From: Pseudofrankia inefficax
GTDB lineage: Bacteria; Actinomycetota; Actinomycetes; Frankiales; Frankiaceae
Reading direction: 5' to 3'
DNA: 64,000 bases
NCBI RefSeq assembly: GCF_000166135.1
Contig: NC_014666.1
Coordinates: forward strand, 1,178,001 to 1,242,000
A program made the position numbers and the translations under genes. Numbering within the stretch: the first letter of the stretch is position 1; every line of letters begins with the position of its first letter. Positions 12,871-46,824 of the stretch are shown one piece after another. The notes beneath the pieces were generated by a model. It saw nothing but the letters and a program-made list of their open reading frames with translations. It searched no databases and was not told the origin of the DNA.

Positions 12871-13003
12871 CTGGGGTGCGTTTCGCTCGGGGGGTTCCCG
12901 GTCGGCGGGCCGCGACGGCTGGGTGTCTGCGGGGTCGGTGCGCCCGCTGGTGGGCGATGGGGTTGGCGCTCGTACGGCCTGAACCTCGTGTGGGCTTGAA
13001 CCT

Positions 13004-30380: not shown

Positions 30381-30956
30381 GTGGGAGTCAGCCTCAGCAA
30401 GGGCGGCAACGTCTCGTTGTCGAAGGAGGCACCTGGCCTCACGAGCATCATGGTCGGTCTCGGCTGGGACGCTCGGACGACGACCGGTTCGGACTTCGAC
30501 CTCGACGCGAGCGCGATTGCGTGCCGCGCCGACGGTCGGGTGGTCTCCGACCAGTACTTCGTCTTCTTCAACAATCTGCGTAGCCCGGATGGCGCGATCG
30601 AGCACCAGGGCGACAACCTCACCGGCGCCGGCGAGGGTGACGACGAGCAGGTGAAGGTCAACCTCGCCACCCTGCCGGCCGAGATCGACAAGATCGTGTT
30701 CCCGGTCTCGATCTACGACGCCGAGTCGCGGCAGCAGAGCTTCGGCCAGGTGCGCAACGCGTTCATTCGCATCGCGAACGAGGTCGGCGGCGCCGAGATC
30801 GCCCGGTACGACCTGTCCGAGGACGCCTCGACCGAGACCGCCATGATCTTCGGTGAGGTCTACCGGCACGGCGCCGACTGGAAGTTCCGCGCGGTCGGCC
30901 AGGGCTACGCGACCGGCCTGCGCGGCATCGCTCAGGACTACGGCGTCAACGTTTAA
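30381..30956 (+). CDS. terD: TerD-family stress protein
   Basis: A 191-residue TerD domain protein: [29 protein letters not shown], interrupted here for length, then [30 protein letters not shown], then [24 protein letters not shown], and [25 protein letters not shown] at the end. TerD proteins bind calcium through the conserved Asp/Glu clusters (DFDLD and GDN.TG) and act in tellurite, phage and envelope stress responses; the molecular role is unsettled. The start GTG 30381 follows GGGAGGAAAACA. It opens the 16-kb Ter-type locus and ends at a strong hairpin. Confidence 0.95.
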
Positions 30957-30964
30957 CGGCAAAG

Positions 30965-30999
30965 CGGCCGGAATGGGCGCGTCGCGCCCGTTCCGGCCG
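30965..30999 (+). terminator. Terminator after terD
   Basis: Arms CGGCCGGAA (30965-30973) and TTCCGGCCG (30991-30999) extend inward through GGGCGC/GCGCCC with one T-G wobble, giving about 16 paired bases and almost no loop. It begins 9 bp past the terD stop. It resembles the hairpin at 21297-21332. Confidence 0.7.
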
Positions 31000-31350
31000 T
31001 AGCTCGGTGCGGCCGGTCGGGTCGTATGGGTGGCCGGGCCGGTCGCCGCCGTGATTGTTCACATCTTGTCGGCCGCTTGTCAGCTTTGTCCCAGGTGGGG
31101 CTGGCTACGATGCGAGGGCCGCGCACCATCTACGAGCGTGTCGTCGGTCGTTTGTCTGGTGCGGCCTCGGTCCGCCGGAGCTTCCCACGGGCCGTGGGGA
31201 GCGGGCGGGCGGCCGGCAAGCCTTGTCGGGCGCGGCTGACGGCGGCGTCGATCAAGGCGGTGCGGTGGACTCCGGCGGACCGGAGCCGCAGCGCCACAGG
31301 CGCCGGCCGACCATCATCCCTTAGACCGGTCCGCGGAGGTGCAGGTCCTG
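31000..31350 (+). promoter_or_regulatory. Leader and candidate promoter of the DUF475/TerC-like gene
   Basis: This 350-bp gap has no supported gene. A -10-like TACGAT is at 31106-31111; TTGTCC at 31086-31091 is a possible -35, but the 14-bp spacing is short. A transcript from there would have a leader of about 235 nt, rich in GC, before the GGAGG at 31335. Confidence 0.35.
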
Positions 31351-32472
31351 GTGCACATCTTGCGGATCTTCGGCTGGTCGTTCGCCGTGACCGCCGTGGT
31401 CGTCGCTGGCGCCGGCGTGATCGGCGGAGGGCAGGCCGCGGCACTCGTCGCGATCCTGGCCGTCCTCGAGATCAGTCTGTCGTTCGACAACGCGGTCATC
31501 AACGCGACGATCCTCGGCCGGATGAGCGCCGCCTGGCAACGGATCTTCCTGACAGTCGGTGTGCTGATCGCCGTCTTCGGCATGCGGCTGATCTTCCCGA
31601 TCGTGGTCGTCGCGCTGACGGCGCATCTGAGCCCCTACGACGTCTTCGACCTGGCGGTCAACCACTCCGACCAGTACGCGGACAAGCTGCACGCGGCCCA
31701 TCCCGCGATCGCCGCGTTCGGCGGGATCTTCCTGTTCATGATCTTCCTGGACTTCATGTTCGACAACGAGCGTGACGTCCAGTGGCTGCGCTGGCTGGAA
31801 GAGCCGCTGCGCAAGGCCGGTGCCCTCGACGTCATCCCGGTCGTGCTCGGGCTGGTCGCGCTGCTGGTCGTCGGCGAGTGGTTCTCCGGCGGCCACACCG
31901 AGCAGGTCTTCGTCGCCGGCGTCGCCGGTCTCGCGACCTACCTGGCCGTCAGCGGCCTCGGCGAGTTCTTCGAGTCACGTGGGCTCGGCGCCGAGGAGGA
32001 CGACGGCGACGAGCCGGCCACCGCTGGCACGGGCGGGGCCTCCAGCACTGCCCTCGCCACCGGCAAGGCCGCGTTCTTCCTCTTCCTCTACCTCGAGGTC
32101 CTGGACGCGAGCTTCTCGTTCGACGGCGTCGTCGGCGCGTTCGCGATCTCCCAGAACATCTTCATCATCGCCGCCGGTCTCGGCATCGGGGCGATGTACA
32201 TCCGGTCACTGACCGTCTTCCTGGTACGCCAGGGGACGCTGTCGGAGTACGTGTTCCTCGAGCATGGCGCTCATTACGCGATCGGCGCCCTGGCGGTGAT
32301 CCTCGCCGTCTCGATCGAGAACGACGTGCCCGAGATCGTCACTGGGCTGATCGGTGTCGCGTTCATCGGCCTCGCGTTGCTGACCTCGATCCGCCACCGC
32401 AGGAAGAACGCGGACCAGGACGGGAACTCCGACGAGAGCTCGGCACCCGAACCGGTCGGCGCCAGCTCGTGA
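31351..32472 (+). CDS. DUF475/TerC-like integral membrane protein
   Basis: The 373-residue protein has about nine hydrophobic segments and the TerC-superfamily signature LEISLSFDNAVINATILGRM near residue 45, where the acidic/Asn residues in the membrane are thought to bind metal. A second acidic membrane motif, LYLEVLDASFSFDGVVGAF, lies near 250, and VSIENDVPEIVTGLIG near the end. This two-half layout is that of DUF475 (YceF/TerC-like) proteins, probable Mn/Ca transporters or partners of TerD at the membrane. GTG 31351 is preferred because the GTG at 31339 overlaps the GGAGG site itself. Confidence 0.88.
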   Translation: MHILRIFGWSFAVTAVVVAGAGVIGGGQAAALVAILAVLEISLSFDNAVINATILGRMSAAWQRIFLTVGVLIAVFGMRLIFPIVVVALTAHLSPYDVFDLAVNHSDQYADKLHAAHPAIAAFGGIFLFMIFLDFMFDNERDVQWLRWLEEPLRKAGALDVIPVVLGLVALLVVGEWFSGGHTEQVFVAGVAGLATYLAVSGLGEFFESRGLGAEEDDGDEPATAGTGGASSTALATGKAAFFLFLYLEVLDASFSFDGVVGAFAISQNIFIIAAGLGIGAMYIRSLTVFLVRQGTLSEYVFLEHGAHYAIGALAVILAVSIENDVPEIVTGLIGVAFIGLALLTSIRHRRKNADQDGNSDESSAPEPVGASS

Positions 32473-32776
32473 CCGAGCCGCGGCTGGGTCCCCGGCGCGA
32501 ATGTTGGCCGGGCGGAGCCTGACCGGGACCAGACACGTTGTCTGGACAGGGCAGGTGGACGCGACCGGCGGTCCGCGCCGAGTTGGCCGCTGTGCAGAAT
32601 GGTCGGCGGGATCGTCGGGGGTGTTTGGTGGTCGGCCCGGGGCGGCAGGTAAGGCCCCAGGCCGACCAGTGCTCGGGAAGCCGCGCCACCCCTACCGGGG
32701 GCCGGGTCGATGGTCCGAGGAGGCTCTCCCGGGCGCCCGGCTGGCGGCGGCGGACGACGACCGCGAAGGAGCGGAC
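32473..32776. other. Intergenic region with operator-like and terminator-like palindromes
   Basis: The 304 bp between the TerC-like gene and the second TerD-like gene carry two strong inverted repeats. 32529-32545 is CCAGACA-CGT-TGTCTGG, a compact perfect 7-bp dyad suited to a dimeric regulator. 32629-32668 has arms TGGTCGGCC/GGCCGACCA continuing as GGGGC/GCCCC after one mismatch, a probable terminator. No gene is seen. Confidence 0.5.
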
Positions 32777-33451
32777 ATGGCTTTCGACAACCCGAACCCA
32801 GGGGCCACCGGCGGGCCAGGCGGCGCGACGCCCGGGGTGTCCCTGAGCAAGGTCACCCTCACGAAGTCCGCGCCGAGCGTGTCGCTGTCGAAGCAGGGCG
32901 GCGGCGGTCGGCTGCACGTGAACCTGAACTGGCAGACGGGTGCCCCCCAGAAGGGCGGCTTCCTCAAGCGCGTGCTCGGTGGCACCGGCGGGATCGACCT
33001 CGACCTCGCCGCCCTCTACGAGCTCAGCGACGGCCAGAAGGGGGTCATCCAGGCCCTCGGCGACACGTTCGGATCCTTCGACGCCCCGCCGTTCGTCGTG
33101 CTCGACGCCGACGACCGCACCGGGTCCGCGGTCGGCGGCGAGAACCTGTACGTCAACCTGGCCCGGGCGGGGCAGATCCGCCGGGTACTGATCTTCGCGT
33201 TCATCTACGAGGGCGTCGCCTCGTTCGACCAGGCCAACGCGGTCGTGACGCTGACCCCCGCGCAGGGCGCGCCGATCGAGGTCCGCCTCGACGAGCAGGC
33301 CGGCGGTTCCCGAATGTGCGCCATCGCGCTGCTGACGAACAACGGCGCCGGCGACTTCACGGTCAGCCGGGAGGTCAAGTACGTCGGCGGCCACCGTCAG
33401 CTCGACGCCCTCTACAACTGGGGCCTCAACTGGACGCCGGGCCGCAAGTGA
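32777..33451 (+). CDS. Second TerD-superfamily protein
   Basis: A 224-residue protein with a divergent TerD domain. It has a Gly-rich start, then two 'SLSK' strands (GVSLSKVTLTKSAPSVSLSKQ), LHVNLNWQTGAP, GIDLDLAALYELSDGQKGVI, FVVLDADDRTGS, GENLYVNLARAGQIRRVLIFAFIYEG and the terminal YVGGHRQLDALYNWGLNW. The DLDLA and DADD-type acidic clusters correspond to the calcium sites of TerD. The start at ATG 32777 follows AAGGAGCGGAC. Its stop overlaps the next start by 4 bp, so it is coupled to the GrpE-like gene, tying TerD function to the chaperone set. Confidence 0.88.
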   Translation: MAFDNPNPGATGGPGGATPGVSLSKVTLTKSAPSVSLSKQGGGGRLHVNLNWQTGAPQKGGFLKRVLGGTGGIDLDLAALYELSDGQKGVIQALGDTFGSFDAPPFVVLDADDRTGSAVGGENLYVNLARAGQIRRVLIFAFIYEGVASFDQANAVVTLTPAQGAPIEVRLDEQAGGSRMCAIALLTNNGAGDFTVSREVKYVGGHRQLDALYNWGLNWTPGRK

Positions 33452-34548
33452 CCGAACCACGCCGCAGGCGCGACCGGGCGGGTCGCTGGTTCCCCGGCTC
33501 CGACCCGCTCGGTCCTGGCCAGGGCGACGGCCCGGACGCCGGTGAGACCACCAGCCTTCCCGGGCTCTCCGGCGCGGGCGGCTCGCCGACGGCGCTGCCG
33601 ACCGTGCCCGCCGGGGCGTTGCCCGGCATCATGACCCCGCCGGACGGCGTGCGCGGGGTTCCCGGCATGGTCGACGTCGCCCGCGGGCCCGCCCGGGGCG
33701 GGGAGCCCGACCCGGGCGGCCCGCCGCGTGGCACATCGGGGCTTCCCGGGGTCAGCGGCCGAGGCTCGATCGACAGCCTCCCGCCGTTCGTCGAGGCGGG
33801 GCCGTATGACTACGACGCCTACGTGGACGCGGCGACCGGCCCGGACTGGGCCGCCGCGCCGACCCGCGGGCCGGCCCCGCAGCCCGGCGGCGATCGGTCA
33901 GGCAACGACCGCCAGGGCAACGACCGGCAAGGCATCGATCGCCAGGCCGGCGACCGCCAGGCCGCCGAGCGCCAGAGCGCCGAGCGTCAGGTGGGCGATC
34001 GGCCGGGCAACGACCGGCAGGGCGGCGAGCGGGCCCTGGCGGGGGACACCGGCCCGGCCGCCGGCGGGCCGACCGGTCCGCGGGCCGCCGGTTCCGGCGA
34101 CCTGGTCGAGGAGCTCGCCGCGGTGGGCCGCCGGCTCGACGAGCTGGCCCGGCTGCGCCGGCACGACGTGGAGCTCGTCGACCGGCTGCACGAGGAGAAC
34201 GGCAAGCTGCGCCAGGGCGAGCTGACCGAGGCGATGGGCCCGCTGCTGCGTGGCCTGATCCGGCTGCACGACCAGATGTCCAGCCTCGGCGGGGACGACC
34301 CGCAGAGCGTCGCCGGCATCCTGCGCAAGCAGCTGCTGCAGGTGCTCGACATCTCCGCCGACGTGCGCCCCTACATCGCGGTGCCGGGCAGCCCCTTCGA
34401 CCCGACCCGCCACCTCGCGCTACGCGGGATCGCCACCGACGACCCGGCCCGCGACCGCACGATCGCCCGCGGTGTCCGGCCCGGTTTCGTGCGTGGCTCC
34501 TCGACGGTCCTGCGCCCGGCCGAGGCCGAGGTGTACCGCAACCGTTGA
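33448..34548 (+). CDS. GrpE-like protein with disordered N-terminus
   Basis: The 366-residue product starts at GTG 33448 inside the preceding stop. Residues 1-145 are Pro/Gly-rich. About 148-195 is a nine-fold pentapeptide array of the type GNDRQ/AGDRQ/SAERQ. From about 219 on it resembles GrpE: a long helix (DLVEELAAVGRRLDELARL), LRQGELTEAMGPLLRGLIRLHDQM, and a beta-rich end with PGSPFDPTRHLALRGIATDD and VRPGFVRGSSTVLRPAEAEVY, the hallmarks of the GrpE beta wing. GrpE exchanges nucleotide on Hsp70; the Hsp70-like gene is next. The main dnaK/grpE set of the genome is presumably elsewhere. Confidence 0.8.
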   Translation: MTEPRRRRDRAGRWFPGSDPLGPGQGDGPDAGETTSLPGLSGAGGSPTALPTVPAGALPGIMTPPDGVRGVPGMVDVARGPARGGEPDPGGPPRGTSGLPGVSGRGSIDSLPPFVEAGPYDYDAYVDAATGPDWAAAPTRGPAPQPGGDRSGNDRQGNDRQGIDRQAGDRQAAERQSAERQVGDRPGNDRQGGERALAGDTGPAAGGPTGPRAAGSGDLVEELAAVGRRLDELARLRRHDVELVDRLHEENGKLRQGELTEAMGPLLRGLIRLHDQMSSLGGDDPQSVAGILRKQLLQVLDISADVRPYIAVPGSPFDPTRHLALRGIATDDPARDRTIARGVRPGFVRGSSTVLRPAEAEVYRNR

Positions 34549-34732
34549 TGAGGCACGACGGGTCGATCCGGCTGAGGACGTACCGTGTCGCCCTGGTGGC
34601 CTGATGCGCCCGAAATGGGGGCGGTGGCGGCCGGCCGGGTAGCGCTAGGTACAAAACTCATGGGCAAACAGTCAGACCAGCGCGTCGCCGGTTGGCCGTG
34701 ACAGAACACGGCCGGCGTCCGGGTGGGCGGCG

Positions 34733-36622
34733 GTGATGACAAACGCGGCGCCCGGGCGCCGCGTCGGAAGGGACGGTGGCGGCGTGGCAGACGGCCCGCA
34801 CCTGGCCTCAAGCGACTCAGGCCCGCACGTGGCCTCAGGGAACGCAGGCCCGCACGTGGCCTCAGGAAACGCAGGCCCGCACGTGGCCTCGGGGAACGCA
34901 GGCCCGCAGGTGGCATCAGGGAGCGCGCAGCCGACCTCGGGCGACGGTGCCAAGGGCGCCAAGGTCTTCGGGATCGACCTGGGCACGACCTACTCGTGCA
35001 TCGCGCGCCTGGACGAGTACGGCCGGCCGGACGTGATCCGCAACATCGAGTCGCAGCCGACCACCCCGAGCGTGGTGCTGTTCGACGAGGGCGCCGACAG
35101 CCAGGTCTCCTTCGTCGTCGGCACGCAGGCCAAGCGCCAGCTACGGATCCGGCCGGACGACGTGGCCAGCCTGGTCAAGCGGCACATGGGCACGTCCGAC
35201 TGGCGGTTCGTCGCGCACGGCGTCGAGTACACCGCGGCCGCCGTCTCCAGCCTCGTCCTCAAGGCCCTGGCCGCCGACGCGGAGCGCGCCACCGGTGGGC
35301 CGGTGACCGACGTCGTCATCACGGTGCCGGCCTACTTCGGCGACGAGGAGCGCAAGGCGACCAAGCTGGCCGGCGAGCTCGCCGGGCTCACGGTCGTCGA
35401 CATCATCAACGAGCCGACCGCCGCCGCCTTCGCCTACGGCTTCGCCCAGGACGGCGCGGCCGAGTCGACGGTGCTCGTCTACGACCTCGGTGGCGGAACC
35501 TTCGACACCACCGTGATCCGGCTGCGCGAGGGCGGCATCACCGTCGTCGCCACCGACGGCGACCACGAGCTGGGTGGCGCCGACTGGGACCTGGAGCTGG
35601 TCCGCCACCTTGCCCGCCGGTTCGTCGAGGCGCAGCCGGACGCCGGCGACCCGCTCGACGACGTCTACGACGAGCAGGAGCTGCTCACCTCGGCCGAGGA
35701 CGCGAAGCTCGCCCTGTCCGGCCGGGAGAGCGTCGACGTGCTGGTCGTGCACGGTGGCCGGCGCACCAGCGTGACGGTGACCCGCTCGTCGTTCGAGGAG
35801 CTGACCAAGCCGCTGCTGGACCGCACGGTCGAGCTTACGGCGTCGGTCCTCGGCCGGGCGAAGGAGAAGGGTGTCGACCGGATCGACACCTGCCTGCTCG
35901 TCGGGGGCATGAGCAAGTCCCCCGCGGTCGCCCGCCGGCTCGCGGAGCAGTTCGGCCTCACCTGCAAGCTGATCGACCCGGACCTCGCGGTGGCCAAGGG
36001 TGCGGCCGTCTACGGCCAGAAGAAGGCGCTGGAGCGGGCCGTCCGCGAGGACCTGGTCAAGGCTGGGCGGATCGGCGCCGACGACGACCTGACCGCTGCC
36101 TCCGACGCAGACGTCGCCGCCGCGGCGGCCGAGCGGGCCGGTGAGGTCGGCCTGCCTGCCTCCGCCGTCGCGGACCTGGTGCGCACCACCGTCACCAACG
36201 TGACGTCCCGCGGCTTCGGCATCTTCGCCGAGGACCGGGGCCGGCCGGTAGCCGCGTTCCTCGCCCAGCAGAACGACCCGCTGCCCATCTCGGTCGCCAG
36301 GACCTTCTACACCGTCACCGACGACCAGACCGAGGTCGACATCCGGGTGTTCGAGCAGGGCACCGGGGTCGCGTCGCCGGTGATCGAGGACAACAAGGTC
36401 ATCGTCGCCGGCGCGCTGCGCGGCATCCCGTCCGGCCACCAGCGCGGGACCCCCGTCGAGGTGACCTTCATCATGGGCCGCGACCAGACGATCGAGGTCC
36501 GGGCCACCCACCCCGGCACGGCCGACCCGCTGGTACTGCGGGTCACCGCCGGTGTGGGCAGCGAGGCGCTGCGCACCGCCGAGGCAGCGAAGGTCAACAA
36601 GCTCGTCGAACGCCGCGAATAG
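34733..36622 (+). CDS. Hsp70 (DnaK)-like chaperone without the C-terminal lid
   Basis: A 629-residue Hsp70. An N-terminal extension of about 75 residues holds five 9-residue repeats (GPHVASGNA type, 34793-34927). The ATPase domain starts near 80 with GIDLGTTYSC; other landmarks are VKRHMG, INEPTAAAFAYGF, VYDLGGGTFDTT and LLVGGMSKSPAV. After a 50-residue Ala/Glu-rich insert comes a beta-type substrate domain (SRGFGIFAEDRGRP ... VTFIMGRDQTIEVRATHP), and the protein ends soon after, so the alpha-helical lid of DnaK (roughly 100 residues) is missing. ADP/ATP-binding residues look intact. Start is uncertain: GTG 34733, ATG 34736 or GTG 34784. Confidence 0.9.
   Translation: MMTNAAPGRRVGRDGGGVADGPHLASSDSGPHVASGNAGPHVASGNAGPHVASGNAGPQVASGSAQPTSGDGAKGAKVFGIDLGTTYSCIARLDEYGRPDVIRNIESQPTTPSVVLFDEGADSQVSFVVGTQAKRQLRIRPDDVASLVKRHMGTSDWRFVAHGVEYTAAAVSSLVLKALAADAERATGGPVTDVVITVPAYFGDEERKATKLAGELAGLTVVDIINEPTAAAFAYGFAQDGAAESTVLVYDLGGGTFDTTVIRLREGGITVVATDGDHELGGADWDLELVRHLARRFVEAQPDAGDPLDDVYDEQELLTSAEDAKLALSGRESVDVLVVHGGRRTSVTVTRSSFEELTKPLLDRTVELTASVLGRAKEKGVDRIDTCLLVGGMSKSPAVARRLAEQFGLTCKLIDPDLAVAKGAAVYGQKKALERAVREDLVKAGRIGADDDLTAASDADVAAAAAERAGEVGLPASAVADLVRTTVTNVTSRGFGIFAEDRGRPVAAFLAQQNDPLPISVARTFYTVTDDQTEVDIRVFEQGTGVASPVIEDNKVIVAGALRGIPSGHQRGTPVEVTFIMGRDQTIEVRATHPGTADPLVLRVTAGVGSEALRTAEAAKVNKLVERRE
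34793..34927 (+). repeat. 27-bp in-frame tandem repeat, five units
   Basis: Five 27-bp units encode GPHLASSDS, GPHVASGNA three times, and GPQVASGSA in the N-terminal extension of the Hsp70-like protein. The middle three differ only at a few positions, so the array is young or kept uniform by recombination. Confidence 0.85.
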
Positions 36623-36624
36623 GC

Positions 36625-36751: not shown

Positions 36752-36832
36752 TCTTGGTTGGGTTCGCGCATGGGTGCGCCCGTCCGCGATCTGTCTCGGA
36801 CGGCACCGCGTTACGTGAGACGAGGGTGAGGC

Positions 36833-39800
36833 GTGAGCGCGGCTTTCGACGGCAGCGGTTACCGCCAGCGGGTGCTGGCGGTGCTGCGGGCGCGTTCCCC
36901 GCTGCGCATCGACGATCCGTTCCTCGTCGCCGACCTCGACCCCGAGGACAGCCACAGCGACGCCGAGGTGCAGGCTCGGCTCGCCCGCGTGCTCGGCTTC
37001 CTGCAGCGGGAGCGCGGCTCGGCGAAGTACGCCACGCTCGCCACCGAGCTGGTCCGCCGCCGGGCCGAGTGGGAGGCCCCGCTGCTCGACCCGGCGCAGC
37101 GTGACCGGGTCCGCGCGCTCGTCGTGGAGGCCCGCCGCGACGGCGAGACGGAGCGGCTCGCCAAGGTCGACGGGTACCTGGCCACGGTCCGGGAGAGGTT
37201 CGGCGGCATCCCGACCTCCCGGGTCGACGGGCTGCGCCGGCTGGCGGCCCAGGCCGGCGTGACCGGCGAGCGGTTCGACGTCCGGCTGGCGCGGGAACGG
37301 ATCATCGAGGACGCCCCCGGCGCTCGGGTGGCTCCGTTGCCGGCCGACGCGCGTGGCCAGATCCGCGACCGGCTCGACGAGCTGCGCGCCCTGCGCCGCG
37401 GCGACCACGCCTCCACCGCCTCGCTGTGGGCCTTCCTCGGCGTCGCGCCGGAGTCGCCGCCGGCGCGGCTGGCCGCCGCCTACGAAGCGGTCGCCGCCGT
37501 GAACGCCCGCCGGCCGCACGACCGGGAGAAGACGGTCACCGCCGACCTGCTGGCGCTGGTCCGCGCCCGGCTGCTGGAGGCGGACCCCGCCGCGTACTCC
37601 GCCGGGCTGCTCGTGGACGCCGCCGACGAGCTGCGCGGGGCCGTCGAGGAGCACGTCCTGCTCGACGGCGAGATCACCGCTGTCGCGTTCGAGGGCCTGA
37701 TGCGCCGGGCGCTGGCCACCGGGCGCGGGCTGAGCGCCACCCAGATCCGCACCGTCGTGCTCGGCCTCGCCCGCGACCTCGGGGTCCCGGTCAGCACGGG
37801 CGCGACGGTCGACTTCGTCGTCTGCCCCGGCTGTGCCCGCCCCGAGCCCGTCGGGGAGGTGCGGGTCTGCCGTTACTGCGACACCGACCTCTACATCGGC
37901 TGCCCCAGCTGCTCCCGGCTCACCGAGGCCGCGGCCGTCGTCTGCCGGCACTGCGGGCAGAGCGTCCGGCAGTCCAGGGACGCCACCGAGGCCGTCGCCG
38001 CGATCCGCCGGGCCCTCGACGAGGGGCGGCCGGCCCAGGCCGTCGAGCTCGTCGGCCGGGCCCGGCCGCTGCTGGTCGCGCTCGGCGGCCCGACCGGCGC
38101 CGTCGGCGAGGAGCTGGCCGCGCGGGCCGCGGCAGCGCTGGCGGCGGCGGAGGCCGGCTGGCGGGCGCTCGCCGACGACCGCGCGGCCGGCCGGGCCCAG
38201 GCCGCGCTGGACCGGGCCCGCTGGCTGGTCGCGCAGGCCGCCGACGTGCGCGGACCCGACGGCCGGGACGGCGCCGAGGTGCTCGGGGAGCTGACCGTCG
38301 CGCAGGCGATGATCCGCCGCCGGGTGGACGCGGCGCTCGGGCTGCCCCCGGCCCAGCGGGAGGCCGCGCTGGTCGCGGTGCTCGCGAGCGCGTCCGACAG
38401 CCCCGAGGCGCTCGCGGCGCTGGCCGCGCTGCCGCTCGCCGCGCCGGCCGACCTGGTCGCGGTGCCGACCGTCGCCACCGGGCCCACCGGCGCGGTGCTG
38501 CTGCGCTGGCGGTCCGCCGACACCGCAGCCCCGGTCTCGTTCCGGGTCGACCGGGTGGTCGCCGGCACGCTCGGCGTCCCGCCGACCCGGTCCGGCCTGG
38601 GCACGACAACGGTCGCCGAGCTGACCGACGCCGGCGCTCCGGCCTGGGTGCCGGTGTTCTACGAGGTGACGGCGTTCTCGGCCAGCCGTCGCTCGGCGCT
38701 CGCCCGGACGGCGCCGCTGGTGCTGACCCGTGAGGTCGAGCAACTGCGCGCGCAGCAAACCGCGGACGGCGTCCGGCTCACCTGGCGGCTCGACGGCCCG
38801 GTCCAGGTGGTCACCGTCGAGCGGGCCGTAGACGCCGTCGACGCCGTCGATCCGAGCGTCGTCCCGGAGGCCGACGAGGACGGCGACCCGGCGACCGGCG
38901 GCACCGTGCCGAGCGCGGCCCGCGTCGTCGACCGGTCCGTGCGGCACACCAGGGCCGGCGGCGGGACGCTGACCGACCCGGACGTCCAGCCCGGCGTCAC
39001 CTACCGCTACCGGCTGTCGGTCGAATACGTCGCCGCCGACGGCATGCCGGCGCGCACGGCCGGGGTCGAGGTCTCGGTGGCGGTCGTGGCGCGGCCGCTG
39101 CCGGTCCTCGACCTGGCGGTCTCCTACTCCGCTGGCGGGACCATGCTGCGCTGGACGGCGCCGCCCGGCCCCGAGGTGCGGGTCTACGCGACCCCCGGGG
39201 TGCTGCCCGACATGGGCGCGCCGCCCGGCGGCCGGTTCGGACCCCCGCCGGCGGCACCGGTGGGACCGTTCGGGCCGGAGAACGTCGACCTGCCGCTGGA
39301 GGCGCTCACGGGCCCGGTCCGGCTTGTGGGTACCAGCCGCCGTGGCCGGCTACTGGACCCGGCGGCGGTCGGCCCGGTCGTGTACACCCCGGTCAGCGTG
39401 CTCGGCGGTCGCGGCGTCATCGGCCGCCCGGTCCAGCACATCGCCCCGGGCGGCGTCACCGAGCTGCGCGCCGAGGACCGTGGCGACGAGCTGGTGCTGT
39501 TCTTCCGGCTGGCGCCGGGCCTGACCGAGGCGCGGGTGCTGTGGCGGCGGGACCGCACCCCGACCGGGCCGGACGACCCGACCGCCTCTGCCGCGACCGT
39601 GACCGTCGCCGGCCTCCAGCCGCGCGGCGGCGGCTGGCGGTTGTCCGCGCCGCGCGACGGCTGGCCCTACTACGTCGCCTGCTTCCCGGTGTTCCGCGTC
39701 GGCGGGCAGCCGAGGGCCGCCGCCGCGGGCGCCGAGGTGGTCGTGCGGGCCCCGGCCAGGCCACGTGTCGACGCCGGCACGGCTCCGCCCCTGGCGGCCG

Positions 39801-41356
39801 CAGCGGCCGGACCGCTGGCCGCTCCCGAGCCGTCCTACCTCGCGCCGGTCCCCGCTGGCCCGGCGACCTCCGCGATCCCGGTCGCCGTGCCGACCGGCGC
39901 CCTGCCGATGCCACCGCCAGGCCTGGCCCAGCGGCCGGTCCCGTCGGCGGCACCGCTGGCCGGCCCGCCATTGACGGGGCCGCCGATCACGGGCTCACCG
40001 CTGGTGGGGCCGCCGCTGACGGGGTCGCCGCTGGTCGGCCCGCCGGTGACCGGGCTGCCGCCTCGGATGGGCGTCCCGGCGGCGGCGCCGCCAGCCGGCC
40101 CGCCGGCCATGCCGCTCGCGGCGCCGCTGGGCGGGCCCCTGCCGGCCGGCGCCCTGCCGCCTCCGGCGGTCACCGGGCCGGTCCCGGTCGTGGTCCCGTC
40201 GGCGCAGCAGCTCCCACCCCCCGGATTTCCCACGGGTACCGGCCCGAACCCGCTCCCCACGGCCACCGTCGGGCCGGACCGGCAGCCGGAGCGGCCGTTG
40301 CCGCCGATGGTGAATCCACCGACCGGCGCCGGCCTGCCCATCGTCGGTCAGGTGGGTGGCCCGCCCCGGCCCGGCCCCGCGTCGGCCGTCGTGCCGCCCA
40401 TGCCCACCGTGCCGCCCATGCCCACCGTGCCGCCCATGTCGACCGTGCCGCCCATGTCGACCGGGCTGCCCATGTCGACCGGGCCACTGCCCAGCGCGCC
40501 AGGACCGGAGGAGGAGATCCCGAGCGGCCCCGGCTGGTTCCGCCCGGCGATGCCCGTCCCTGTGGTCGCCTTCCAGCCGTTCCCGGCCGTCCCGCCGGGC
40601 GAGCCCGGCGGGGAGCCTGCGTGGACCCCGTCGGTACCGGGTGACGCCGGCTCGGACCCCGCGGGCCCAGCGGGCCGGCTCCCGGCGCTTGGCGTGCCCG
40701 CCGGGCCGGACTCGCGCGCTGGCTGGACGCTGCCCGCGACCCATACCGACCTCTTCGCCCCCGCTGGCCAGGACGGCACCGCCGGGTTCGGCGCGCGGAC
40801 CTGGCCGCCCGGGCTGGCCACGGTCCCCGGCGCCGCTGGCGGCACGCCGCCCGGCGGCGACGACGCCGGCCAGCCGGGTGCCGCCGGTGCTGCCGGTGCT
40901 GCCGGTCGGCCGGGCCGGTCCGGCCGGTCCGACTCGGCGGACGGCCTGCTGGAGGACCTGGACGACGAGGCTGACGAGGCCGACGAGCACGCCGACGACG
41001 ATCGGTTCGACGACGACCTGGACGACGACGAGGCCGGCTCGGGCGAGCCCCGGGTGTCCTACTTCTCGACCCGGGCGGGCTGGCGTCGGCGCGTCCTTCG
41101 GGTGCGGGTCCGCACCGACGGCGCGGTGCCCGAGCTCGTGCTGGTCGCCCGGCCGGGGACGGTGCCGCCCGCCACTCTCGGCGAGGGCCAGGCGCTCGCC
41201 CGGCTCGCGCCGTGCGCCGAGCGAGCCACCAGGACGATGGACGTCCGGCTCGAGGGCGCCCTGCTGCCGTGGGGCATCCGGCTGCTGCCCGCGTCCGGAG
41301 AGGGCGGCGACCTCACGGTTGACCACCCGCCGGACGACGCGCTCGTCATTCGCTGA
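36833..41356 (+). CDS. Giant zinc-ribbon/FN3-like protein of the Ter-Hsp70 locus, with possible J-like segment
   Basis: A 1507-residue protein I cannot assign to one named family. Seen in order: an all-helical N-terminus to about 190; a segment at about 197-260 (SLWAFLGVAPESPPARLAAAYEAV interrupted for length, ARRPHDREKT, LLEADPAAY) that resembles a degenerate J domain, with PHD where HPD is expected; two zinc ribbons at about 332-380 (CPGC, CRYC, CPSC, CRHC); a helical region; beta-rich repeats at about 535-975 that look FN3-like; a Pro-rich linker to about 1360 with PPMPTV/PPMSTV and GPPLTGSP units; an acidic patch (DLDDEADEADEHADDD); and a last beta domain. GTG 36833 starts it. It could be the co-chaperone or client adaptor of the upstream Hsp70. 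No signal peptide or membrane segment is seen. Confidence 0.75.
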   Translation: MSAAFDGSGYRQRVLAVLRARSPLRIDDPFLVADLDPEDSHSDAEVQARLARVLGFLQRERGSAKYATLATELVRRRAEWEAPLLDPAQRDRVRALVVEARRDGETERLAKVDGYLATVRERFGGIPTSRVDGLRRLAAQAGVTGERFDVRLARERIIEDAPGARVAPLPADARGQIRDRLDELRALRRGDHASTASLWAFLGVAPESPPARLAAAYEAVAAVNARRPHDREKTVTADLLALVRARLLEADPAAYSAGLLVDAADELRGAVEEHVLLDGEITAVAFEGLMRRALATGRGLSATQIRTVVLGLARDLGVPVSTGATVDFVVCPGCARPEPVGEVRVCRYCDTDLYIGCPSCSRLTEAAAVVCRHCGQSVRQSRDATEAVAAIRRALDEGRPAQAVELVGRARPLLVALGGPTGAVGEELAARAAAALAAAEAGWRALADDRAAGRAQAALDRARWLVAQAADVRGPDGRDGAEVLGELTVAQAMIRRRVDAALGLPPAQREAALVAVLASASDSPEALAALAALPLAAPADLVAVPTVATGPTGAVLLRWRSADTAAPVSFRVDRVVAGTLGVPPTRSGLGTTTVAELTDAGAPAWVPVFYEVTAFSASRRSALARTAPLVLTREVEQLRAQQTADGVRLTWRLDGPVQVVTVERAVDAVDAVDPSVVPEADEDGDPATGGTVPSAARVVDRSVRHTRAGGGTLTDPDVQPGVTYRYRLSVEYVAADGMPARTAGVEVSVAVVARPLPVLDLAVSYSAGGTMLRWTAPPGPEVRVYATPGVLPDMGAPPGGRFGPPPAAPVGPFGPENVDLPLEALTGPVRLVGTSRRGRLLDPAAVGPVVYTPVSVLGGRGVIGRPVQHIAPGGVTELRAEDRGDELVLFFRLAPGLTEARVLWRRDRTPTGPDDPTASAATVTVAGLQPRGGGWRLSAPRDGWPYYVACFPVFRVGGQPRAAAAGAEVVVRAPARPRVDAGTAPPLAAAAAGPLAAPEPSYLAPVPAGPATSAIPVAVPTGALPMPPPGLAQRPVPSAAPLAGPPLTGPPITGSPLVGPPLTGSPLVGPPVTGLPPRMGVPAAAPPAGPPAMPLAAPLGGPLPAGALPPPAVTGPVPVVVPSAQQLPPPGFPTGTGPNPLPTATVGPDRQPERPLPPMVNPPTGAGLPIVGQVGGPPRPGPASAVVPPMPTVPPMPTVPPMSTVPPMSTGLPMSTGPLPSAPGPEEEIPSGPGWFRPAMPVPVVAFQPFPAVPPGEPGGEPAWTPSVPGDAGSDPAGPAGRLPALGVPAGPDSRAGWTLPATHTDLFAPAGQDGTAGFGARTWPPGLATVPGAAGGTPPGGDDAGQPGAAGAAGAAGRPGRSGRSDSADGLLEDLDDEADEADEHADDDRFDDDLDDDEAGSGEPRVSYFSTRAGWRRRVLRVRVRTDGAVPELVLVARPGTVPPATLGEGQALARLAPCAERATRTMDVRLEGALLPWGIRLLPASGEGGDLTVDHPPDDALVIR

Positions 41357-41838
41357 GCCGCGCTGTTCGCCGGATGGATGGCGAAATGTCATCCGCGCGA
41401 GCCGGATCGGGATGCGCGACGTATTCGACCGATCGGTCTTCAGTAATGTCCGCGCTCCGGCCCGGCTCCGGGTGAACCGAAGATGGCCGCCAAACAAGCC
41501 GGCGGCGGAGCACGGGTGGACCCTCCGGCCCGCGAGGCCGGGCCTGAGCCCGCTGTAGCCCAGCGTGTGACCCCTATTACTACACGTGTGTAGCAGTAGG
41601 TGAGCGGTTGATCCTCGTCCGGATCCGTGTTCACACTGGCGTAGATCGCGTGGGACGTGGACATTACAAGAAAATGTCGTGATGGCGTCAGTGACCCGTT
41701 TCCCGGCGGTCTTCGTCATTGTGGGGGTACGTTCCCCGCGTCGGGCGTTGCCCCAGGTCCGGCGGCGATCGGGGGTGAAGCCGGGCCGGCCCCGGGCGCG
41801 CAGCGTCAAGCCCGTCGAGCCTTGAAGGAGCCGCTCTG
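41357..41838. other. Intergenic region upstream of the biosynthetic module, relatively AT-rich
   Basis: A 482-bp gap with lower GC than its surroundings between 41560 and 41690. Two small dyads stand out: CTACAC-GT-GTGTAG at 41580-41593, flanked by further imperfect symmetry (ACTA/AGTA type), and GACATT...AATGTC near 41659-41678. Both look like regulator sites or promoter neighbourhoods for the operon starting at 41839. No gene is seen. Confidence 0.45.
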
Positions 41839-43032
41839 GTGCGACACTTCGCCTTCCTCGACCCGGCGGCTCGTGACGCGTTGTTCCACTGCCCGCCGAA
41901 GGAGATCAGCCGCGACGACGACCGCCGGCTGGTCGCCACGGCCCTCGGCGCGACGCTGTACGCACCCGGGACCCGGCCGAAGCTCGCCGACGACGTGCGC
42001 CGCCAGTCGGCGGCCGGCGTCGCGTCGATGGTCCTCTGCCTGGAGGACGCGATCTCCGACGGCGACGTGCCGGCGGCCGAGGCGAACGTGGTGCGCGCGC
42101 TCAACGAACTGGGTGAGAACCCGCCGACCGTCGGCGACAGCCCGGGCCTGATCTTCGTCCGGGTCCGCTCGGCCGAGCAGATCCCGGCCCTGGTCGCGGG
42201 CCTCACGCCGGCCGCCGCCGACGTGCTCGCCGGCTTCGTCCTGCCGAAGTTCGTCGAGGACTCGGGCGAGGTGTCGATGGCCGCCGTGCTGCAGGCCTGC
42301 GACCGCCTGGGCCGGCAGCTGTGGGCGATGCCGGTGCTGGAGAGCCCCGAGGTGATCCACCGGGAGACCAGGCTGGAGACGCTGCTGGGGGTGCGCCGGC
42401 TGGTCGACAAGCACGCCGACCACGTCCTCGCCGTCCGGCTGGGCGCGACCGACCTGTCTGGCCTCTACGGGCTGCGCCGCGACCGCGACCTGACCATCTA
42501 CGACATCGCCGTGGTCCGCGACTGCATCGCCGACATCGTCAACGTCTGCGCCCGCGGCGGCGACCACGTCGTCACCGGCCCGGTGTGGGAGTACTTCGCC
42601 CAGCCGGAGCGGTTGTTCGTCAGCTCGCTGCGAGTCACCCCGTTCGCCACCGCCGACCTCGCCGACCCGGTCGTCCAGGGCCCCGCGATGCGCCGCGACC
42701 TGGTCTCGGCCGACCTGGACCGGCTGATCAAGGAGGTCGTGCTCGACAAGGCGAACGGCCTGATCGGCAAGACCGTGATCCACCCCAGCCACGTCGCGGC
42801 CGTGCACGCGCTCTACGTCGTCACCCATGAGGAGTACGAGGACGCGCTCACGGTCGCCGACGGCGAGACCGGCGGGGTCCGGCGCAGCAGCTACGCCAAC
42901 AAGATGAACGAGCTGCGCCCGCACCGGCGGTGGGCCCAGACCGTGCTGCGCCGCGCCGAGGCCTTCGGCGTCCTGAAGGCGGGCCACACCTTCGTCGACG
43001 TCCTGGCGGCCAGCCAGGCGGTGATGTCGTGA
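41839..43032 (+). CDS. TIM-barrel C-C bond lyase (HpcH/citrate lyase beta-like) of the Ter module
   Basis: A 397-residue aldolase/lyase-type TIM barrel. It has an N-terminal RHFAFLDPAARDALFHCPP, then TLYAPGTRPKLADDV, VLCLEDAISDGDV (metal/acid cluster as in CitE-like lyases), VRVRSAEQI, FVLPKFVE, WAMPVLESPEVI, VRLGATDLSGLYGLRR and IGKTVIHPSHV. This fits the 'C-C_Bond_Lyase' family linked to Ter systems rather than citrate lyase proper, because no citrate lyase alpha or ACP genes are near. It probably cleaves or forms a C-C bond on an acyl or sugar-derived intermediate. GTG 41839 follows GAAGGAG. Confidence 0.85.
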   Translation: MRHFAFLDPAARDALFHCPPKEISRDDDRRLVATALGATLYAPGTRPKLADDVRRQSAAGVASMVLCLEDAISDGDVPAAEANVVRALNELGENPPTVGDSPGLIFVRVRSAEQIPALVAGLTPAAADVLAGFVLPKFVEDSGEVSMAAVLQACDRLGRQLWAMPVLESPEVIHRETRLETLLGVRRLVDKHADHVLAVRLGATDLSGLYGLRRDRDLTIYDIAVVRDCIADIVNVCARGGDHVVTGPVWEYFAQPERLFVSSLRVTPFATADLADPVVQGPAMRRDLVSADLDRLIKEVVLDKANGLIGKTVIHPSHVAAVHALYVVTHEEYEDALTVADGETGGVRRSSYANKMNELRPHRRWAQTVLRRAEAFGVLKAGHTFVDVLAASQAVMS

Positions 43033-43300
43033 GCCCGCGCGCAGCGGGAAGTATGAGCGGTCCTGTTTCCGGCCTGCTGGCGTCCGAGGGGCCGGCGTGA
43101 GCCCGCGCACAGCGGGATCGATGAGCGAGCCTCTTTCCGGCCTGCTGGCGTCCGGGAACCTGGCGTGAGCCCGCGCACAGCGGGATCGATGAGCGAGCCT
43201 CTTTCCGGCCTGCTGGCGTCCGGGAACCTGGCGTGAGCCCGCTCGCAGCGGGATCCACGAGCGGGCCCGTTTCCGGTCTCCTGGTGTCCGGGGTGCCGGC
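43029..43300. repeat. 68-bp tandem repeat, four units
   Basis: Four head-to-tail 68-bp units start at 43029, 43097, 43165 and 43233. Units 2 and 3 are identical or nearly so; units 1 and 4 diverge. Each begins GTGAGCCCG, includes a small CCCGC-GCGGG hairpin and ends around GCTGGCGTCCGGG. The first unit overlaps the lyase stop codon. At 68 bp the frame shifts every unit, so the array is not coding as a whole. The array fills the gap between the lyase and PRTase genes. Confidence 0.9.
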
Positions 43301-43343
43301 GTCCGACCGGCCCGCGTCGCGGGGACCCGCGCAGGGGAGTGGT

Positions 43344-44663
43344 GTGGACGACGACTGGCTGTGGGAGGCGCTCGGGCTCGTCGCCGAGGTGACCGAGGAC
43401 GCCACCGGTGGCGGGCTGCGCGGCCTGGTCGGGCTCGCGCTGCGGCGCAACCCGCGCCGCGCGCACCTGCTGGTAAGCCGGGTGCTCGGCAAGCACCTGC
43501 CGGTCCCGCCGGCGGTCGCGCTCGAGGCAGGGGCGGCGCTCGCCGCCAGAGCCCGGGCCGGCTCCGCCGCCGCCCAGGCGTCCCTGGCCAGCGGCGAGAC
43601 CGTGTTCGTGCTCGGCTACTGCGAGACGGCGACCGCGCTCGGGCACGCCGTCGCGGACGGGATGCCGGGCGCCGACTACCTGCACACCACCCGCCGGGCC
43701 GTGGCCGGGATGCGCTCCGAGCTGGAGCTCGCCGAGGCGCACTCGCACGCCGTCCACCACTGGCTGCTGCCCGCCGATCGGCGCCTGCTGACCGACCCGC
43801 GCCCCCTGTTGCTCGTCGACGACGAGCTGTCCACCGGCAACACCGCGATCGGGACGATCCGGGCCCTGCACGCGCTCGCCCCCCGGCCCGCCTACACGGT
43901 CGCCGCGTTGCTGGACGCCCGGCCGGCCCCGGCGCGGGCGGCCTTCGACCGGCTCGCCGACGAGCTGGGCGTGCCGGTCGACGTCGTCTCGCTGGTCTCG
44001 GCGACCGTCCAGGTGCCCGCGGACGTCGCCGAGCGGGCCAGCGCGATCCGCGCGCGGTTCGCCGCTCCCAGCCCGGAGAACGAAGCCGACGCCGCGCGTG
44101 GCCGGGTGAGCTGGGTGCGGCCGCCATGGCCGGCCGAGCTGCCCGACGGCGGGCGCCACGGCTGGACGCCCGCGCACGGCCGGCTGCTCGACGAGGTCGT
44201 CGACGCGGCGGGCGCCTCGATCGCCGCCCGGCTTACCGCCCCGGCCGGACGGACCCTCGTGCTGGGCACCGAGGAGCTCATGTACACGCCGATGCGACTG
44301 GCGGCGGCCCTCGCCGGGGTGACCGGCGGCGACGTGCGCTACCAGTCGACGACGCGCTCGCCGGTGCACCCGCTGGACGTCCCCGGCTACGCGATCCGCA
44401 CCGCGCTGGAATTCCCCGCGCCCGACGACCCGAGCCGGGTCAGCCAGGTCTACAACGTCGGGCCCGCCCGTCACGGCGGCGCCACGGACAGCTCGGCCGC
44501 CGGCCGCTATGACGACATCGTGGTGGTCGTCGACGGCGGGGTCGACGCCGCGGCCGACCGCGGTGACGGCCCGGCCCTGGCTGGGCTGGTCGAGGCGTTG
44601 CGCACCCACGCGCCGGTCACAGTCCTCACCCTGCCGTCGTTCGTCCCGGAAGGCGCCCGATGA
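43344..44663 (+). CDS. Phosphoribosyltransferase with C-terminal TRSP domain
   Basis: A 439-residue protein. The PRPP-binding loop is LLLVDDELSTGNTA near residue 157, diagnostic of type I phosphoribosyltransferases, with GYCETATALGHAVADGM upstream. The C-terminal domain contains the exact TTRSP motif (336-340) and TALEF, so it belongs to the PRTase_2-TRSP family found in Ter operons. It is predicted to attach or remove a ribose-phosphate in making a nucleoside-like compound. I chose GTG 43344, with GGGGAG just upstream, over GTG 43233 because the longer reading would start inside the 68-bp repeat. Confidence 0.86.
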   Translation: MDDDWLWEALGLVAEVTEDATGGGLRGLVGLALRRNPRRAHLLVSRVLGKHLPVPPAVALEAGAALAARARAGSAAAQASLASGETVFVLGYCETATALGHAVADGMPGADYLHTTRRAVAGMRSELELAEAHSHAVHHWLLPADRRLLTDPRPLLLVDDELSTGNTAIGTIRALHALAPRPAYTVAALLDARPAPARAAFDRLADELGVPVDVVSLVSATVQVPADVAERASAIRARFAAPSPENEADAARGRVSWVRPPWPAELPDGGRHGWTPAHGRLLDEVVDAAGASIAARLTAPAGRTLVLGTEELMYTPMRLAAALAGVTGGDVRYQSTTRSPVHPLDVPGYAIRTALEFPAPDDPSRVSQVYNVGPARHGGATDSSAAGRYDDIVVVVDGGVDAAADRGDGPALAGLVEALRTHAPVTVLTLPSFVPEGAR

Positions 44664-45982
44664 CCGCGACCACTCAGCCTGCCGCGACCACTCAGCCTGC
44701 CGCGGCGACCCAGCCTCCCGCGACGACTCAGCCTGCCCCGGCGACCCAGCCTCCCGCGACCACTCAGCCGGCCGCGGCGACCGGACGCCACCCCGGCCCG
44801 GTCCCGGTGGACGCCCCGGCGGAGGCCGGCCTGCCGGGCACGATCGGCTCCGGCTCCTACGACCCGGCCGACGTCACCTTCCTGCTCAAGGACCTCTCCG
44901 CCGCCGACCTCGAACGGGCGACCGAGGACCGCGAGGAGGACATGCAGCGCGGCCGGCACTACTCGGAGGACCTGCCGGTCGAGTACCAGCCGGACGAGAG
45001 CTACCTGGCGCTGTACCACCAGGCGCTGGAGCGCTCGGCGACCCGGGTGGCGCTGGCGGTGGGGCTGGTCTGTGAGCTGGTCCGGGTGGCCAAGCCCGCG
45101 CCGGTGCTCGTCTCGATCGCCCGTGCCGGCACTCCGATCGGCATCCTGATGCGCCGCTGGTACGCCTACAGCCTCGGGCTGGACGTGCCGCACTACGCCA
45201 TCTCGGTGATCAAGGACCGGGGCATCGACCTGAACGCCGTCCGGTACCTCACCGAGCGCCACGACCCGGCCGCCCTCCAGTTCGTCGACGGCTGGACGGG
45301 CAAGGGCGTGATGACCCGCGTCCTGGCCGAGGCGGCACCGGGCCTCGGCCTGGACGACACGATGGCCGTCCTCGCCGACCCGGCCCGCTGCGTCTCCCTC
45401 TACGGCACCCGCGACGACTTCCTGATCCCGAGCGCCTGCCTGAACTCGACCGTCTCCGGCCTGGTCAGCCGTACGGTGCTGAACGCCGAGCACATCGGCC
45501 CGGCCGACTTCCACGGCGCCAAGTACTACCGCGACCTGGAGCCGCACGACCTGTCCCGCCACTTCATCGAGACGGTCGTCGCCCGGTTCCCGGAGGTCGC
45601 CGCCGAGGTGGCCGCGACCTGGCCCGAGCTGTGGTCGTCCGACCGGACCCCGACGTGGGCCGGCTGGGCCGCCGTCGAGCGGATCGCCGAGCGCTACGAG
45701 ATCCCGGACGTCGCCATGGTCAAGCCGGGGGTCGGCGAGGCCACCCGGGTGCTGCTGCGCCGGGTGCCGTGGCGGGTCCTGGTGGCCCCGGACCGGGTCG
45801 AGGAGCTGCCGCATGTGCTGGCGCTGGCCGAGGCTCGCGGCGTGCCGGTCGAGGAGATGCCAGGCCTGCCGTTCTCCTGCGTCGGTCTGGTCCGCCCCGT
45901 GCGGGCCGACGGCGAGGCACCCGTGTTCCACACCCCGCAGTCGCGCTGGCGCCCCTCCGACGTAGCGGAGGGCGGCCAGTGA
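44660..45982 (+). CDS. PRTase-like protein with C-terminal PELOTA RNA-binding domain
   Basis: A 440-residue protein whose ATG overlaps the previous stop by 4 bp. Residues 1-42 are a Thr/Gln/Pro/Ala array (ATTQPA and ATQPPA units). The core has YDPADVTFLLKDLSAADLE, VLVSIARAGTPIGILMRRW, HYAISVIKDRGID and FVDGWTGKG, the family sometimes labelled 'cysteine protease StiP' but classed by comparative genomics as PRTase_1. The last part (about 365-425: WRVLVAPDRVEELPHVLALAEARGV, interrupted, GLVRPV) matches the PELOTA-type RNA-binding fold. It is coupled to the HAD gene downstream. A pairing of PRTase and RNA-binding domains suggests a nucleotide or RNA substrate. Confidence 0.85.
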   Translation: MTATTQPAATTQPAAATQPPATTQPAPATQPPATTQPAAATGRHPGPVPVDAPAEAGLPGTIGSGSYDPADVTFLLKDLSAADLERATEDREEDMQRGRHYSEDLPVEYQPDESYLALYHQALERSATRVALAVGLVCELVRVAKPAPVLVSIARAGTPIGILMRRWYAYSLGLDVPHYAISVIKDRGIDLNAVRYLTERHDPAALQFVDGWTGKGVMTRVLAEAAPGLGLDDTMAVLADPARCVSLYGTRDDFLIPSACLNSTVSGLVSRTVLNAEHIGPADFHGAKYYRDLEPHDLSRHFIETVVARFPEVAAEVAATWPELWSSDRTPTWAGWAAVERIAERYEIPDVAMVKPGVGEATRVLLRRVPWRVLVAPDRVEELPHVLALAEARGVPVEEMPGLPFSCVGLVRPVRADGEAPVFHTPQSRWRPSDVAEGGQ

Positions 45983-46824
45983 CGCCGGCCCCGGCCGCGC
46001 GCTGGCTGGTGGCCTGTGATCTCGACCAGACGCTGATCTTCTCCCGCCGCTCGTTCCGGCTGCCGCCGGGCGTGGCCGAACCGGACCTGGTCCTCGTGGA
46101 GCGGCTGAACGGGGAGCCGGCGGCGTTCATGACCGCGCCGGCCTTCGCGGGCGTCGCCGAGCTTGCCCGGCGAGCGGTCCTGGTGCCGGTGACGACTCGC
46201 ACGCTGGGCCAGTACCGCCGGGTCGACCTGGGAGTGACGCCGCCGTTCGCGGTCGCCGCCAACGGCGGCCACGTGCTCGTCGACGGCGAGCCTGATCCGG
46301 GCTGGGCGGCCGCCGTCGCCGCCCGGCTGCGCGACGCGGCGCCGCTCGCCGAGGTGCTCGTCCTCGCCGAGCGGCTCGCCACCGGCGGCTGGTGCCGGCT
46401 GACCCGCGTCGCCGACGACCTCTTCGTCTACCTCGTCGCCCACGAGCGCGACGGCATCCCCGACCTGGCAGCGGTCACCGCCGAGCTCGCCGCCGCGGGG
46501 TGGACGGTCTCGGTCCAGGGCCGCAAGGTCTACTTCGTGCCCGCGACGCTCACCAAGCAGGCGGCCCTCGCCGAGGTGGCCCGCCGCGCCCACACCGACC
46601 GGACCGCCGCCGCCGGCGACTCGCTCCTCGACGCGCCGATGCTCGCCGCCGCCGACGTCGCGGTGCGCCCGGCCCACGGTGAGCTGCACGACCGTGCCTG
46701 GGATGCCCCCAACCTGCGCGTCACCGCCGCCGCGGGCATCCTGGGCGGCGCGGAGATCGTCGGCCAGCTCGTCACCGTCGTCACGGACGCCATGGCCTTT
46801 CCCGCGGGCCGCCCTGCTGGTTAG
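45979..46824 (+). CDS. HAD-superfamily phosphatase of the Ter module
   Basis: A 281-residue HAD hydrolase starting at GTG 45979, overlapping the previous stop. Motif I is ACDLDQTLIF, motif II is VPVTTRT, and motif IV is AAGDSLLDAPML, with a Lys (VYFVPATLTKQ) as motif III. The C2 cap between motifs II and III resembles sucrose-phosphatase/Cof-type enzymes. It should remove a phosphate late in the pathway run by the two PRTases and the lyase. Its last codons (GRPAG) lie inside the first unit of the 73-bp repeat array. Confidence 0.88.
   Translation: MTPAPAARWLVACDLDQTLIFSRRSFRLPPGVAEPDLVLVERLNGEPAAFMTAPAFAGVAELARRAVLVPVTTRTLGQYRRVDLGVTPPFAVAANGGHVLVDGEPDPGWAAAVAARLRDAAPLAEVLVLAERLATGGWCRLTRVADDLFVYLVAHERDGIPDLAAVTAELAAAGWTVSVQGRKVYFVPATLTKQAALAEVARRAHTDRTAAAGDSLLDAPMLAAADVAVRPAHGELHDRAWDAPNLRVTAAAGILGGAEIVGQLVTVVTDAMAFPAGRPAG

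Follow-up and report, generated by a model that had tools for sequence, protein, structure and literature searches.

The 64,000-nucleotide stretch of Pseudofrankia inefficax DNA analyzed here (contig NC_014666.1, positions 1,178,001 to 1,242,000; below called the window) carries, between its positions 30381 and 46824, ten open genes, all on the plus strand, in which a Ter locus is combined with a chaperone set of its own (Table 1). This set comprises a GrpE-like protein, an Hsp70 and a large partner protein with J-like segments and zinc ribbons. The Ter locus features present are a TerD-domain protein, a TerC-type membrane protein and an enzyme module of C-C bond lyase, phosphoribosyltransferase (PRTase_2-TRSP), StiP-PELOTA and HAD-type phosphatase genes, the last of these weakly matched (in Pfam by Hydrolase_3 at 0.022). 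The gene content and single-strand order proposed in an earlier sequence-based reading of this DNA (the original prediction) were confirmed for all ten genes; of its "two phosphoribosyltransferase-type proteins", the first is indeed PRTase_2-TRSP, but the second is StiP-PELOTA. An Rfam scan of the window gave no match. As detailed below, the coupling of the chaperone set to the Ter genes is supported and is wider than the window alone.

Table 1. Genes of the Ter/chaperone locus (positions in the window) and a GH26-like gene of other Frankiaceae loci (positions in the named loci). Values after family accessions are E-values.
Feature	Position	Strand	Length (residues)	Basis
TerD1, canonical TerD domain	30381..30956	+	191	PF02342 4.1e-85
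DUF475/TerC-type membrane protein	31339..32472	+	377	PF04332 1.4e-118, PF03741 7.3e-20
TerD2, divergent protein of predicted TerD fold	32777..33451	+	224	TerD fold by structure model
GrpE-like protein	33448..34548	+	366	PF01025 2.2e-4, under cut-off
Lidless Hsp70	34733..36622	+	629	PF00012 8.1e-96; alignment to own DnaKs; trees
J-like/double zinc ribbon/beta-rich (FNIII-like) protein	36833..41356	+	1507	J-like segments, four CxxC pairs
C-C bond lyase, TIM barrel	41839..43032	+	397	PF15617 1.3e-122
PRTase_2 + TRSP	43233..44663	+	476	PF15609 1.9e-66, PF12500 2e-39
StiP + PELOTA_1	44660..45982	+	440	PF11202 9.1e-99, PF15608 8.8e-33
HAD-type phosphatase	45979..46824	+	281	Weak HAD-IIB matches, best NCBIfam 4.3e-6
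GH26-like glycosidase gene	L055 4967-6865; L051 14597-16525; L043 13848-15476			One of the three just under the Pfam cut-off

The "several" 4-bp overlaps of the original prediction are found at three of the nine junctions (TerD2/GrpE-like, PRTase/StiP and StiP/HAD), but the remaining six are gaps of 184 to 482 bp. Of the Hsp70 system for which translational coupling to a TerD protein was proposed, only the GrpE-like gene overlaps TerD2; the Hsp70 gene starts 184 bp past the GrpE-like gene. The TerD2/GrpE-like overlap is present in all six loci of the window's genus that were examined (the window counted); in another eight loci of the Frankiaceae, the GrpE-like gene could start at the earliest 15 to 19 bp (three loci) or 37 to 178 bp (five loci) past TerD2.

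TerD2 is the Ter gene that most often adjoins the chaperone genes. Its product has no match in Pfam or NCBIfam, a profile search of the Protein Data Bank (PDB) found nothing, and an hhalign comparison with TerD1 is weak (probability 44.7, E 2e-4). An AlphaFold2 model (predicted local distance difference test, pLDDT, 79.5) was used for a fold search in which six entries, including a radial-spoke chain (7jtk_A) at 12.6, reach Z-scores of 12.6 to 17.1 while the next one lies at 4.9; solved TerD proteins are matched at 15.6 (3ibz), 13.8 (2qz7) and 13.2 (2kxt). The fold search settles TerD2 as a divergent protein of predicted TerD fold. Of the 35 genomes of the order, 34 have a strong TerD2 relative (64% to 100% identity), and a class-wide sample of 296 genomes includes 68 with matches at E <= 0.001, of which a few are weak.

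The GrpE-like protein consists of a long low-complexity N-terminus and a GrpE-type C-terminal part. In three Frankia loci (L046, L051 and L054), the GrpE-like frame after TerD2 is open for about 900 to 1100 residues, mostly an N-terminus without a recognized domain. Aligned to two DnaKs of the same genome, the Hsp70 keeps the ATPase motifs, has an insert in the linker that precedes the substrate-binding beta domain, and lacks the C-terminal lid. The Hsp70 tree contains a clade of 26 sequences (support 100/99), 16 beside Ter genes and 10 not, which is adjoined by seven sequences (96/94) from loci of the GAP1-N2 DO-GTPase type discussed below, and both groups stand apart from the two DnaKs. On this sequence-based topology, the Hsp70 of the window is placed outside the DnaK clade and in a clade of its own. 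Canonical DnaKs are encoded elsewhere in the genome, and two HAIR-like sites precede the dnaK gene. In the window, neither HAIR-like nor CIRCE-like sites were found; for HAIR, this absence is weak evidence since 0.6 sites would be expected there by chance. In all, the genome has 19 segments that match the HSP70 family, spread over well more than a dozen sites. It also has a second Hsp70/J-like pair on the minus strand of another stretch (L127, G000:C1:1378000-1397900; Hsp70 at 12083-13942, partner at 9773-12031), on which Ter, GrpE and GTPase relatives were not found, and other Frankiaceae carry such a second pair as well (L140 and L141).

The 1507-residue partner protein is read as J-like on the basis of structural comparison, a profile search against solved chains and hhalign. 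In a model of its first 430 residues (pLDDT 79.5, predicted template modeling score, pTM, 0.49), residues ~20-105 resemble many J domains, with Z-scores reaching 6.7, and residues 188-269 resemble one (Z 6.1). The latter segment also finds the J domain of DNAJC3 among solved chains (E 0.004) and aligns by hhalign to J domains of the same genome (probability 67, E 5e-5). A Foldseek search with this 430-residue segment returned nothing at E <= 0.001. The HPD motif occurs in the first 430 residues of none of 15 aligned partner proteins. Scanning named genomes with the partner profile yielded 40 loci, which fall into two types, that of the window (24 loci) and a second one (16 loci); the letters HPD appear in two of these 40, at positions of about 41 and 293, outside the J loop. 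The zinc ribbon corresponds to a sub-threshold match to Pfam DZR. Of 15 aligned relatives, 11 retain its four CxxC pairs, as do 23 of the 24 named loci that share the window's type, compared to none of the 16 of the second type. The protein also has a long proline-rich tail. For its beta-rich part, the label "fibronectin type III (FNIII)" was reduced to "FNIII-like" because fn3 matches are weak and PDB profile matches for FNIII repeats are not significant in the partner protein.

From the order's 34 other genomes, 31 loci were fetched, one per genome, and the gene order TerD2, GrpE-like, Hsp70 and zinc-ribbon gene recurs in 24 of these 31 Frankiaceae loci; 19 of the 24 have TerD1, DUF475, lyase and PRTase genes on the same stretch. 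Four stretches (L062, L067, L068 and L070) end at a contig end. In Frankiaceae, joint inheritance is seen for the GrpE-like protein, lidless Hsp70 and J-like/zinc-ribbon protein. The two halves of the locus (30.4-41.4 and 41.8-46.8 kb), which the original prediction treated as one unit, co-occur in this family. A GH26-like gene separates the zinc-ribbon gene from the lyase gene in three of the Frankiaceae loci scanned (Table 1); it is absent from the window and was dropped as a part of the unit. In one Frankiaceae genome, the HAD and StiP genes flank a dimethylformamidase-like gene (L049, 1353-3098).

Each of the 24 loci in the scan that share the window's type comes from a genome named as Frankia, Pseudofrankia, Parafrankia or Protofrankia. 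Among the 16 of the second type, Ter genes lie on the stretch in eight (Pseudonocardia, three Geodermatophilus, three Gordonia and one Mycobacteriales metagenome-assembled genome, MAG), and orders and strands are different in the three Geodermatophilus, the Pseudonocardia and the Mycobacteriales MAG. A divergent GrpE-like gene stands beside the Hsp70 gene in eight of the 16. Twenty non-Frankiaceae stretches with TerD2 (7-20 kb) were fetched, one of which has the Hsp70 pair beside TerD2 (G164, a Gordonia). Across Gordonia, the GrpE, Hsp70 and J-like genes are adjacent in 17 of 17 loci with TerD2 next to them in 16, and the distance from the partner to PRTase_2 is at least 167 kb in eight of the 17 and ~8 kb in two, with the two genes on different contigs in the other seven. 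AIM24-domain genes were seen inside Ter loci of Gordonia (L138, 10400-13094) and Geodermatophilus (L188, 14334-16003).

Even where it is unlinked, the pair co-occurs with PRTase_2. In the class-wide sample, the J-like partner is found in 28 genomes (27 Frankiaceae and the Gordonia G164) and strong PRTase_2 (E < 1e-40) in 68, and all 28 are among the 68. These J-like counts stem from a profile search; a search with a single zinc-ribbon protein sequence scored only two candidates per genome. All 16 second-type genomes have PRTase_2 (split in two pieces in one), and in Gordonia the partner occurs in 17 of 59 genomes, all of them within the 34 that have PRTase_2 (Fisher p 1.5e-5, uncorrected for kinship). 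The association of the chaperone set with PRTase_2 envisaged in the original prediction is borne out without exception in 55 distinct genomes searched for both, a count that covers the class-wide sample, the second-type genomes and Gordonia, with overlaps removed by coordinates. In several actinobacterial families, the Hsp70/J-like pair tracks the Ter locus.

Ter systems are widespread and, to our knowledge, unsolved in their mechanism. A Ter locus with PRTase_2/TRSP, StiP/PELOTA, C-C lyase and HAD genes was reportedly described by Anantharaman, Iyer and Aravind in 2012. Compared to described Ter loci, the window is alike in TerD, TerC-type protein and enzyme module but adds the GrpE/Hsp70/J-like unit between TerD2 and the enzyme module. 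Compared to the DnaK-DnaJ-GrpE machinery, it shares the ATPase domain, the substrate-binding beta domain and a GrpE-type exchange factor, while the lid, an HPD motif in place and a HAIR/CIRCE-like site are missing and the Hsp70 branches apart from the DnaKs of its own genome.

Relatives of the chaperone set are found in the GAP1-N2 DO-GTPase systems. For these, Kaur et al. 2020 (PMC7159879) describe an HSP70/GrpE theme with an FNIII protein that is usually a fusion with DnaJ or TPR. The Hsp70 and the GrpE-like protein (the latter below the Pfam cut-off) are related to their counterparts there and the partner N-terminus is homologous (hhalign 98.8%, E 8e-17), whereas the window differs in its own Hsp70 clade, double zinc ribbon and Ter partners. 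As judged from sequence comparison, the clade of the Hsp70/J-like pair is related to, and distinct from, the Hsp70 of these systems. Locus L136 illustrates their setup, with homologues of GrpE, Hsp70 and partner alongside DO-GTPases and GAP1 (PF19993, PF20013, PF20014 and PF20052). DO-GTPase/GAP1 relatives are present in eight of 136 stretches, all of the GAP1-N2 type, and no match at E <= 1e-8 was obtained in the window or in any Ter-type stretch searched. Locus L131, grouped with the GAP1-N2 type by its Hsp70, shows no GTPase or GAP1, but a contig end cuts this locus. In a GAP1-N2 DO-GTPase/Hsp70 locus of Parafrankia soli (L132, 12788-16008), GrpE is preceded by a TerD-domain gene, and a CATRA/EAD1 gene lies beside it as well. 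Our literature search, whose reach did not include the primary 2012 Ter paper, turned up no description of a Ter locus with an Hsp70/GrpE unit, and PMC7159879 was the only article with TerD, GrpE, Hsp70 and zinc ribbon together, its TerD passage being separate from the HSP70 theme. The original prediction that this is not a described unit thus stands for the literature searched, but has to be narrowed in view of the HSP70/GrpE/DnaJ-FNIII theme described for DO-GTPase systems.

The presence of the chaperone set with the signal-making genes of the Ter locus, in every genome searched for both, points to a chaperone that serves one signaling pathway. In a published Ter model, PRTase and HAD enzymes make a nucleoside-like signal that TerB/TerD domains might sense, and Ter systems are proposed to act against phages (PMC7824862). 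We suggest, with about an even chance of being right, that the window holds a Ter stress or conflict locus with a dedicated, built-in Hsp70 switch. The lyase, PRTase, StiP and HAD enzymes would make the nucleoside-like signal, and TerD2, with its predicted TerD fold and probable ligand binding, would read it. The J-like protein may grip a target or the TerD2 complex via its beta-rich part and zinc ribbons and present it to Hsp70, whose contact would be made reversible by ATP hydrolysis and the GrpE-like exchange factor. The chaperone would then act as a conformational threshold and not as a general folding machine, and its end effect would probably be exerted at the membrane, together with DUF475/TerC. 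A position of the chaperone unit downstream of the Ter signal fits the one-way presence dependence on PRTase_2. The original prediction assigns putative roles in metal sensing or gating at the membrane to TerD/TerC, in the handling of clients to the chaperone set and in making a small nucleoside-like molecule to the downstream enzymes.

Several observations weigh against this interpretation. At the level of the proteins, the J-like fold match of the partner is modest (Z 6-7, a common range and no proof alone), its fn3 matches are weak (one of 11 Ter-type members at E 0.012 and one of 10 other partner proteins at 7.6e-4), and the GrpE match lies under the Pfam cut-off, over the C-terminal part. 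Regarding co-occurrence, the presence counts are uncorrected for phylogeny, and the reverse dependence fails, with 40 of the 68 PRTase_2 genomes of the class-wide sample lacking the J-like protein; one genome with J-like protein and PRTase_2 (G027) has only a weak TerD2 match. Three Frankiaceae loci are broken up: L060 gives way to other sequence after the GrpE-like gene, and a block of Hsp70, zinc-ribbon, lyase, PRTase, StiP and HAD genes begins another contig (L139); L050 does the same soon after TerD2, with the Hsp70 and zinc-ribbon genes on another contig; and in L069 (genome G014) the lyase gene directly follows TerD2 while the GrpE/Hsp70/zinc-ribbon trio lies on another contig (L128). 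The chaperone block is thus separable. In eight of the 16 second-type loci, no Ter gene was found on the fetched stretch (three Nocardioides, Nocardia seriolae, three Frankiaceae second copies and one short MAG contig), and no GrpE-like gene was found in the second-type loci of Geodermatophilus, two MAGs and the Frankiaceae second copies. The split G014 and the eight loci without Ter genes on the stretch speak against a tight coupling.

The retained ATPase motifs would also suit an ordinary stress chaperone that refolds metal- or oxidatively damaged proteins and merely shares a trigger with its Ter neighbors, and many papers reportedly tie Ter genes to tellurite resistance. We consider this unlikely, as the Hsp70 has no lid, HPD is not at the J position, the genome encodes its canonical DnaKs elsewhere and the pair co-occurs with PRTase_2 even when unlinked; the lack of HAIR/CIRCE-like sites adds to this only weakly. 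The idea that the genes share a neighborhood without sharing a function, with ancestral linkage kept by drift, can point to G014 and the unlinked loci as proof that the parts can separate. It appears very improbable to us, given that the same partners recur in several arrangements across families and that their presence depends one-way on PRTase_2.

The kinship with the GAP1-N2 systems opens another possibility, namely a GTPase-free offshoot of these anti-invader systems that uses the Ter signal to the same end, in which the beta-repeat protein would sense an invader and Hsp70 would assemble a blocking complex. The homology of GrpE, Hsp70 and partner N-terminus would be explained directly, the TerD-domain and CATRA/EAD1 genes adjoining the L132 locus fit as well, and so does the proposed anti-phage role of Ter systems. 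However, GTPase and GAP1 are missing from the Ter-type stretches searched, the locus is conserved in Frankiaceae and not patchy, and PADLOC matched none of the ten proteins (though its library may lack such systems), so that we regard this scenario as possible but somewhat unlikely.

Under the preferred interpretation of a Ter locus with a built-in Hsp70 switch, TerD2 is named as a candidate receptor and Hsp70 with its J-like and GrpE-like partners as a candidate switch. In the genomes searched for both, the pair was never found without the Ter signal-making enzymes, yet it can sit far away from them on the chromosome. By descent of their parts, Ter systems would be tied to the GAP1-N2 DO-GTPase conflict systems. 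Tentatively, and with clearly less confidence than for the switch itself, we propose that the Ter-clade Hsp70, its J-like and GrpE-like partners and TerD2 may form a receptor that is gated by a chaperone and responds to a nucleoside-like second messenger. It would be an Hsp70 machine devoted to a single signal in actinobacterial stress or phage conflict, with a sister design in the GAP1-N2 DO-GTPase systems.

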